A DNA stretch of 9,750 nt from a bacterium (GTDB lineage Bacteria; CG2-30-53-67; CG2-30-70-394), in NCBI GenBank assembly GCA_024278555.1, contig JAJRSX010000165.1, positions 1 to 9,750 of the forward strand, read 5' to 3'. Each line of letters starts with the position of its first letter. Position 1 is the stretch's first letter. The notes under the pieces were generated by a model. That model saw nothing but the letters and a program-made list of their open reading frames with translations. It was not told the origin of the DNA and ran no database searches. A program made the translations under genes and the position numbers. Below are positions 6,958-9,195 of this stretch, piece by piece.

Positions 6958-7761
6958 ATGGACCTCGCAACCCTACTTGGCACCCTCTCCGCCTTTGGCC
7001 TGGTGGCCGTGTCGATCCTCCTCGGGGTCGGCTTCTCCGCCTTCCTCGACCTCCCCTCCCTGCTCATCGTGGTGGGCGGCTCCCTTGGGGTAGCATTGAT
7101 GAACTACCCCTTCCGGCGGCTCCTGGGCGCCGCACGGGCGGCGGTGCAGCTCCTCCGCGACCCGCGTCCCGATCAGCAGGGGATGCTCAAGCGGCTGGTG
7201 GAGCTCTCCCAGCAGGCACGCCGCGATGGCCTCTTCGCCATCGGCGACAACCTCGAAAAGGTCAAAGAGCCGTTCCTCAGGAAGGCCCTGGAGATGGTGG
7301 TGGACGGTGTCGACCACCCGGCGATCGAGAAGATCCTCGAAGAGGAGCTGGAGATTCTCGAGGAGCGCCACAACGGCGCCGCCGAGGTCCTCGCCAGCCT
7401 CGCCGCCTACTCCCCGGCCATGGGGCTGATCGGCACCCTGATCGGCCTGGTGGGGATGCTGCAGAACATGTCCGACCCCTCCTCCATCGGGCCGGCCATG
7501 GCGGTCGCCCTGCTCACCACCTTCTACGGCGCCATCCTCGCCAACATGCTCTTCCAGCCGGCGGCCGGGAAGCTCCGGGTCCGGACCCAGGAGGAGGTGC
7601 GCTTCAAGGAGCTCATCGTCCGCGGTGTCCTCTCCATTGCCGACGGCGAGAACCCGCGCGTCCTGGAGCAAAAGCTGCACGTCTTCCTGGCGCCCAGCGC
7701 CCGAATCTCCGCCTTCCCCACCCTGGGCCAGGGCCGCACCGAGGGGGCGAAGGCGTGGTGA
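6958..7761 (+). CDS. motA: Flagellar stator protein MotA/PomA
   Basis: MotA forms the pentameric ring of the inner-membrane ion channel that turns the flagellar rotor. ATG 6958 gives 267 aa starting MDLATLLG, the usual PomA-type N-terminus; GAGAGA at 6950-6955 is a weak, closely spaced ribosome site. Four membrane segments are visible: about 3-24, 33-50, 146-168 and 178-199. The cytoplasmic loop has Arg88/Arg89 and a following acidic patch (Asp97, Glu100), where rotor contacts are known. The channel-lining blocks PAMGLIGTLIGLV (153-165, Thr160) and GPAMAVALLTTFYGAI (178-193, Thr188) are close to Vibrio PomA. Thr160 aligns with the PomA Thr linked to Na+ use, so Na+ coupling is possible but unproven. 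The stop overlaps the start of the next gene (GTGA), and a sigma-54-like promoter lies upstream. Confidence 0.95.
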   Translation: MDLATLLGTLSAFGLVAVSILLGVGFSAFLDLPSLLIVVGGSLGVALMNYPFRRLLGAARAAVQLLRDPRPDQQGMLKRLVELSQQARRDGLFAIGDNLEKVKEPFLRKALEMVVDGVDHPAIEKILEEELEILEERHNGAAEVLASLAAYSPAMGLIGTLIGLVGMLQNMSDPSSIGPAMAVALLTTFYGAILANMLFQPAAGKLRVRTQEEVRFKELIVRGVLSIADGENPRVLEQKLHVFLAPSARISAFPTLGQGRTEGAKAW

Positions 7762-8477
7762 AGCGGCGCCCCACCCCGGCCGGTGAAGGCGGCAACTTCG
7801 TCGTCCTCTACACCGCTCTGAGCGTCATCCTCCTCTCCTTCTTTGTCCTGATGAACAGCATCGCGGTCCCCGACGCCGATCGGCGTGCGCGCGCCATGGG
7901 CTCCCTCGGCGAGGCCTTCTCCCTCTTCGACGACGGCGAGCGCACCCCGAACGACGACGCCATCAAGCCCGAGGCCCTCGACCTCGGCGGTGGTGACGCC
8001 GGCGACCTCGCCGACCTCACCGCCCGCTTCAGCCGCCGGATCGCGGCCCTTGCCGGCGGCGACGGGGTCGAGGTGCAGCGCGGCCACGACGACGTCCGCA
8101 TCACCCTCTCCGGCGCCCTGCTCTTTGCCCCGGGCAAGGCGGCCCTAAACGACACCGGCGATCTCCTCACCCGCGTCGCGGCGGCGGCCAAGGCCTTCCC
8201 CGGCACGGTACGGATCGAGGGCCACACCGCCGCGACCGAGGGGGAGACTGCGACCGCCGGCTGGCACCTCTCCGGCAGTCGAGCGGTGGCGGTGATGCGC
8301 TACCTCCACGAATCGGCCGGCATCGCCGAGTCACACCTCGCCGCCGCCGGCTTCGGTCCGTACCGACCGGTAGGCGACAACGACACGGTGGCCGGACAGG
8401 ACGAGAACCGGCGGGTGGAGATCGTCTTCGTCGGCGCGAGCCGCTGGACCGAGGAGAGGAGCCATGGCCGGGGATAA
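7758..8477 (+). CDS. MotB-like OmpA-domain protein lacking the ion-binding Asp
   Basis: GTG 7758 overlaps the motA TGA (GTGA); an in-frame GTG at 7755 is an alternative start. The 239-aa product has the MotB layout: short cytoplasmic N-terminus, one membrane helix (14-36, ending LLSFFVLMN), a linker (about 40-110) and a C-terminal OmpA-like peptidoglycan-binding domain (about 112-226, with EGHT, LSGSRA and NRRVEIVF). Aligned on FFVL with the following MotB, the essential ion-binding Asp is replaced by Ala20, and the helix contains no acidic residue. In the OmpA domain the usual GHTD reads GHTA (155-158), while the Arg of the RA motif (Arg175) remains. The frame is intact and encoded in a tight overlap, so it looks functional rather than decayed. 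It probably pairs with MotA/MotB as a non-conducting or structural subunit. The last 14 nt overlap motB. Confidence 0.88.
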   Translation: MKRRPTPAGEGGNFVVLYTALSVILLSFFVLMNSIAVPDADRRARAMGSLGEAFSLFDDGERTPNDDAIKPEALDLGGGDAGDLADLTARFSRRIAALAGGDGVEVQRGHDDVRITLSGALLFAPGKAALNDTGDLLTRVAAAAKAFPGTVRIEGHTAATEGETATAGWHLSGSRAVAVMRYLHESAGIAESHLAAAGFGPYRPVGDNDTVAGQDENRRVEIVFVGASRWTEERSHGRG

Positions 8478-9195
8478 ACGCCGGGGTATAGAGGTCGACG
8501 GGCAGCGGTGGATGGTCACCTTCTCCGACCTCATCACCCTCCTGCTCACCTTCTTCGTCCTCAACCTCGCCATGTCGTCGATGGAGGGCGGCGCCCTGGA
8601 AGAGACCTTCGGCACCCGTTCGAACGGTGCCGCGGGCGGCGGCAGCGCGCTGGTCAACCTCACCGACGAGCCGGGACAGGCCGGCTTCGGCGGCGGCCAG
8701 GAGGCGGCGGATGTGCCGGTCGCCACCGGCGACGGCAGCGGCGTCCTGGAGGCGGTCGCCGACGGCGTCTCGGATCTCGGCCTCGACGAGACCATCGAGG
8801 TACGCGAGAGCGGCCGCGGCCTCTACCTTACCCTCCCCGGCGACCTCCTCTTCTCCGTCGGCAGCGCCCGCCTCTCCGGCGGCGGTGAGAAGACCCTGCG
8901 CGCCCTCGTCCCCCTCCTTCAGCGGCCGGGACTGGAGGTCTCGGTGGAGGGCCACACCGACGGTACCGTTTCCCGTTCGTGGAGCTACCGCGACAACTGG
9001 GACCTATCCCTTGCCCGCGCGGTGGCGGTAGCCACGGTTCTGGAGGCGGGAGGGATCAACCCGGCGCGCCTGTCGGTGGCCGGCTACGGCAGCGCCAGGC
9101 CGCGGGTCGCCGGACGCCCGGCCGAGGTCGGCCAGTACAACCGCCGCGTCGAGCTGCTCCTGCACCTCGACCACCCCGTTCACGACATCTCGTAG
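8464..9195 (+). CDS. motB: Flagellar stator protein MotB/PomB
   Basis: MotB anchors the stator to peptidoglycan and carries the ion-binding carboxylate used for torque. ATG 8464 follows GAGGAG (8451-8456) inside the end of the preceding gene. The 243-aa product has RWMVTFSDLITLLLTFFVL (15-33) with the essential Asp at residue 22, the position equivalent to Asp32 of E. coli MotB and Asp24 of PomB. A Gly/Ala-rich linker containing the plug region is about 40-110. The OmpA-like domain (about 115-235) contains VEGHTDGT (Asp166), WDLSLARA (Arg185) and YNRRVELLL, the residues expected for meso-diaminopimelate binding. It is therefore a canonical, active-looking MotB, in contrast to its upstream neighbour. 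fliL follows after 24 nt. Confidence 0.95.
   Translation: MAGDKRRGIEVDGQRWMVTFSDLITLLLTFFVLNLAMSSMEGGALEETFGTRSNGAAGGGSALVNLTDEPGQAGFGGGQEAADVPVATGDGSGVLEAVADGVSDLGLDETIEVRESGRGLYLTLPGDLLFSVGSARLSGGGEKTLRALVPLLQRPGLEVSVEGHTDGTVSRSWSYRDNWDLSLARAVAVATVLEAGGINPARLSVAGYGSARPRVAGRPAEVGQYNRRVELLLHLDHPVHDIS

Follow-up and report, generated by a model that had tools for sequence, protein, structure and literature searches.

The canonical flagellar stator is a MotA5-MotB2 (PomA5-PomB2) complex in which the B subunits are identical and each carries the ion-binding Asp. Current models of 5:2 rotary motors let ions alternate between two identical axle Asp sites, and the published turnstile model has two sites and 36-degree steps. 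ExbB/ExbD belongs to the Ton system and lacks the OmpA-like domain. Two MotB-type genes beside one MotA-type gene have been described in Aquifex aeolicus, whose operon has the order motA-motB1-motB2; MotB1 and MotB2 share 97% identity in their N-terminal and transmembrane regions, and weak motility is obtained with chimeras of either one (PMC4525482). In the Myxococcus gliding motor AglRQS, AglQ and AglS are TolR-like and both are described with the conserved aspartate, and whether they form a heterodimer or homodimers is undecided (PMC9389320).

We analysed a 9,750-nt stretch of bacterial DNA (the window; contig JAJRSX010000165.1) that carries a motility operon on the forward strand. It comprises motA, encoding the stator ring subunit (6958..7761, 267 aa; Pfam MotA_ExbB 103 bits, cut-off 22.9), a MotB paralogue without the ion-binding Asp, hereafter B* (7758..8477, 239 aa), an intact partner motB, hereafter B (8464..9195, 243 aa; Pfam MotB_plug 44.3 bits, OmpA 58.9 bits), and fliL, which is truncated by the contig end (9220..9750; Pfam FliL 74.7 bits, cut-off 24.6). 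The tight packing pointed out in the preliminary description was reproduced: motA lies directly 5' of B*, the GTG start codon of B* overlaps the motA stop by 4 nt (GTGA), and the start of B overlaps the end of B* by 14 nt. Note that a GTG one codon upstream is an equally possible start for B*. Upstream of the operon are genes for an OmpH-like chaperone, LpxD, a FabA/FabZ-like dehydratase and queuosine synthesis, and what we take, from its translation, to be a BamA-like outer-membrane protein. A FliG gene was found in the window's own genome. The same genome has a second motA-motB pair (G000:C69, L054 6599-8236) in which the Asp is kept and motB is broken by an in-frame TAG; an intact copy of that second motB is present in the sister species (L036 2132-2941). 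If the TAG is real, this genome may have no intact MotB proteins other than those of the window operon.

B* has the architecture of a MotB protein. It scored above the cut-offs of Pfam MotB_plug (PF13677; 26.7 bits, cut-off 24), the family with a single N-terminal membrane helix, and of Pfam OmpA (PF00691; 46.7 bits, cut-off 27.2), and its best full-length PDB matches were MotB-type chains, with 6ysf and 8ucs as solved MotB structures. In the AlphaFold2 model and the alignment, the membrane helix spans residues 12-36 (7791..7865) and is followed by a predicted plug-like helix at residues 40-55 (7875..7922, moderate confidence) that carries the motif GSLGEAF. The OmpA-like peptidoglycan-binding domain (8121..8411) was delimited by Pfam at residues 122-218 and by alignment, and Foldseek matched the periplasmic domain to OmpA-like, MotS, MotB and PomB domains. 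In a gap-free alignment on FFVL (FVVLYTALSVILLSFFVL in B* vs WMVTFSDLITLLLTFFVL in B), Ala20 of B* (codon gct, 7815..7817) stands opposite Asp22 of B (codon gac, 8527..8529), exactly as first read, so that Asp22 is the sole membrane Asp of the pair. The accompanying statement that the B* helix has no other acidic residue also holds, as there is no charged residue at all from -3 to +14 around this position. B* thus lacks the ion-binding Asp of MotB/PomB. In NCBIfam, B* fell below every curated cut-off (best PRK09038, 96.7 bits, cut-off 283), and four further B* proteins scanned were likewise below the cut-offs among the matches listed. In addition, the window's B* has GHTAATEG (8206-8250) in its OmpA-like domain, without the usual peptidoglycan-binding Asp of GHTD, which most aligned relatives keep; a simple motif count for the peptidoglycan-binding residues was too loose and was discarded.

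Relatives of the pair were collected in two ways. Whole-genome searches found the arrangement in a Candidatus Tectomicrobia genome (G055, JACPUC010000007), in each of the four G041-family genomes, and in G223 and G322. GTDB genome contigs were scanned with two short transmembrane motifs, neither of which includes the Asp position; this gave 51 loci, one of them already known (G055, as L145). The window protein alone gave no match as the query of such a scan, and eight diverse members gave an alignment too degenerate for searching. In the 60 Asp-less B* loci that were read, the Asp position was occupied by Ser (36), Ala (10), Gly (8) or Thr (6), and none of the 60 proteins had a charged residue from -3 to +14 in the helix. 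The Asp was present in all 57 partner MotBs scored; the loci with no scored partner were three at contig ends and G144, whose Asp-bearing partner escaped the anchor pattern. Wherever the contig extends far enough, an Asp-bearing MotB adjoins B*. The two genes were adjacent in 56 loci, the others being those at contig ends, the sister genome, where the locus is split over two contigs, and G144. The order was B* then B in 54 of these 56, many pairs overlapping or lying at most 10 nt apart, and it was reversed in the verrucomicrobial and lentisphaeral loci. The usual order is motA-B*-motB-fliL, and the conservation that the preliminary description had proposed to check extends, fliL included, to distant phyla. 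Carriers were found in Thermodesulfobacteriota, Myxococcota, Pseudomonadota (mostly alphaproteobacterial), Nitrospirota, Nitrospinota, Tectomicrobia, Sumerlaeota, Planctomycetota, Verrucomicrobiota and Lentisphaerota, that is, about ten named phyla plus further lineages, with the proviso that taxonomic labels of metagenome bins can be wrong. The arrangement is rare, occurring in 9 of 386 genomes (six families) in a broad panel.

Several neighbouring cases were recorded, two of which were treated separately from the main family. In G144 (L109 2006-3503) the order is reversed (motA-motB-B*) and B* has Ser where the Asp would be; this B* fell outside the main B* clade, and its Asp loss perhaps had a separate origin. 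G217 and G346, members of one genus (L110 2012-3463, L111 1992-3447), have motA, an Asp-bearing MotB and then a MotB with Asn in place of Asp (VIPYGNLM), so that the Asp was possibly lost independently there. In several lineages, including Aquificota-like ones, two motB genes lie in tandem and each encodes the Asp (L105, L106, L107, L108, L112, L113, L049). For the alphaproteobacterial B*-B pairs (L153-L162, L164-L166, L169-L171, L174), no adjacent motA was detected; the loci inspected by eye resemble chemotaxis or flagellar clusters. A conserved C-terminal tail similar to FxFKxFxF was seen in 14 of the 60 B* proteins (L132, L135, L136, L138, L140, L141, L143, L145-L148, L163, L167, L168) and in none of the 57 partners.

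Next to the Asp, a second feature separates the two proteins. In the main, mostly motA-linked group, a plug-helix motif, GSLxGxFG (scored as GSL..[FL]), was present in 39/43 B* proteins and 2/40 partners, vs 16/36 ordinary MotBs taken as the comparison set, and the Asp in 0/43, 40/40 and 36/36, respectively. The motif is part of the plug helix and lies about 28-34 residues past the Asp position. The AlphaFold2 models of the window proteins differ in the same region: B* has its separate plug-like helix, whereas B has one continuous helix (residues 13-49), along which confidence falls, and no separate plug-like helix. Such a complementary split is what one expects of two specialised subunits sharing the work of one former MotB dimer. 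The pore helices of the associated MotAs were also examined for an acidic residue that might compensate, and none was present, indicating that the Asp of partner B is the only candidate ion site.

One rival explanation is that B* is a decaying motB duplicate or a sequencing artefact. Between the window and the sister species (G001, the only other genome of the genus), pN/pS was 0.69 for B* (115 codons), indicating weak constraint, and 0.15 for motA; the value for B*, together with the missing peptidoglycan-binding Asp in the window's copy, would fit decay. However, the open frame is kept across phyla, the Asp position is fixed to small residues and the plug motif is conserved, and the sister species likewise lacks the Asp. 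Specifically, the preliminary description had singled out an Asp in sister genomes as the sign of a recent mutation or an error, and Ser was found there. The sister B* is divided between two contig ends; motA precedes it and motB-fliL follow. Since the sister species has Ser within the same gene order, Ala20 is neither a sequencing error nor a recent mutation, and we consider decay or artefact highly improbable.

The history of the B* proteins was then addressed with trees. In the full-length tree, 58 of 59 B* proteins fell on one side of a branch with an SH-aLRT value of 96, which favours one old B* family. Note that the transmembrane region may drive this grouping, and that the motif search biases helix residues +6 to +13 of the 51 scanned loci, which may favour it as well. 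With the OmpA-like region alone, B* did not form one clade, and a single origin was not rejected (AU p 0.449, in a test that left out alphaproteobacterial and long-branched rows).

To what extent carriers depend on the pair was estimated with Pfam MotB_plug. No MotB beyond the B*/B pair was detected in 23 of 48 genomes searched, most of which are draft genomes where further motB genes may be missing, and FliG was present in 23/23; in one of the 23, MotB_plug detected only the partner, not B*. Pfam MotA_N was insensitive to the B*-associated type of MotA and was unusable for counting MotA genes. The B*/B pair is the best candidate for the sole stator in those 23 organisms.

Given the pairing and the division of motifs, we lean, with somewhat better than even expectation, towards B* and B forming the axle pair within one MotA ring, in a stator where only B provides an ion-binding Asp. 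One operon would yield two specialised MotB subunits and a single MotA; B* would contribute the conserved plug helix, one of the two axle helices and an additional OmpA-like anchor, and B would contribute the only ion-binding Asp of the two-helix axle. Relative to the two-site turnstile, a single site would require either a larger step per ion or passage of the ions by a modified cycle. The broader proposition, that these operons encode an ancient and widespread stator class with an obligate B*/B axle, in which one Asp suffices for rotation and plug control and ion binding are divided, we hold at close to even chances. The suggestion in the preliminary description of one conducting and one silent B per stator is strengthened by the strict pairing, the genomes with the pair as sole MotB set and the way plug motif and Asp are divided between the two proteins, whereas we infer that B* and B share one complex, that their ratio is 1:1 and that a one-site stator turns.

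Several points weigh against a mixed axle: the dominant-negative behaviour of Asp mutants, the search bias behind the B* grouping and its loss once the transmembrane region is removed, the alphaproteobacterial pairs without an adjacent motA, the pN/pS of B* and the missing peptidoglycan-binding Asp of the window's B*. The first is the main objection. In E. coli and Salmonella, MotB mutants affected in proton binding act dominant-negatively when wild-type MotB is also present, and a D32A-type MotB mutant loses motor occupancy (PMC12288467). For this reason a mixed dimer would need adaptation, and a natural mixed axle must, if it exists, have adapted around the dominant-negative effect.

The scaffold-or-brake alternative raised in the preliminary description we regard as less likely. 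As a scaffold, which is the chief rival reading, B* would stay outside the ring of B and form a separate non-conducting complex around the motor, alone or with MotA, for example as a peptidoglycan or FliL-ring anchor for MotA5-B2. The inactivity of canonical mixed dimers (PMC12288467) is in line with this, as are the retained OmpA-like domain, the C-terminal tail that is frequent in B* and unseen in partners, and the location of the alphaproteobacterial pairs away from motA. However, the B* helix is of MotB length and preserves FF(I/V)L, the core packing inside MotA, and B* also keeps the plug-helix motif; a mere scaffold would need none of these, and we regard this role as rather unlikely. 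As a brake or regulatory subunit, B* would swap for B under some condition and give idle stators, which agrees with the poor motor binding and dominant-negative effect of Asp-to-Ala MotB variants in model bacteria (PMC12288467). On the other hand, B* is fixed in position with motA and motB, often overlapping them, so that it is probably cotranscribed and the ratio would be hard to vary by transcription; a brake thus appears improbable.

Were the mixed axle with its single Asp correct, it would matter beyond these lineages. Whether both Asp sites are needed is hard to test in model bacteria because mixed dimers are dominant-negative there, and a natural one-site axle would allow direct tests of how large a step is, how many ions a turn takes and whether symmetry is needed. 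It would also serve as a warning that many MotB-annotated genes do not encode ion-binding subunits.

Our literature searches, which covered open-licence papers so that a description elsewhere is possible, returned no account of an Asp-less MotB paralogue or family, and the B* family is apparently undescribed in the literature searched. ExbB with ExbD1/ExbD2 resembles the present operon in that two axle-type paralogues are encoded beside one ring protein; loss of the Asp in one of these paralogues was not found in the published account examined. AglRQS likewise combines one MotA-like with two MotB-like proteins, but it is not flagellar and both of its B-type proteins are described with the Asp. 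The Aquifex operon is alike in that a single motA precedes two motB genes; however, neither MotB1 nor MotB2 is described as silent (PMC4525482), whereas in the window operon only B has the Asp. With the canonical stator, the locus shares the MotA ring gene, single-helix B proteins with a plug and an OmpA-like domain, and the adjoining fliL, and it differs in having two different B genes, one of them without the Asp. The B*/B arrangement is, in this comparison, a new variant of the 5:2 stator.
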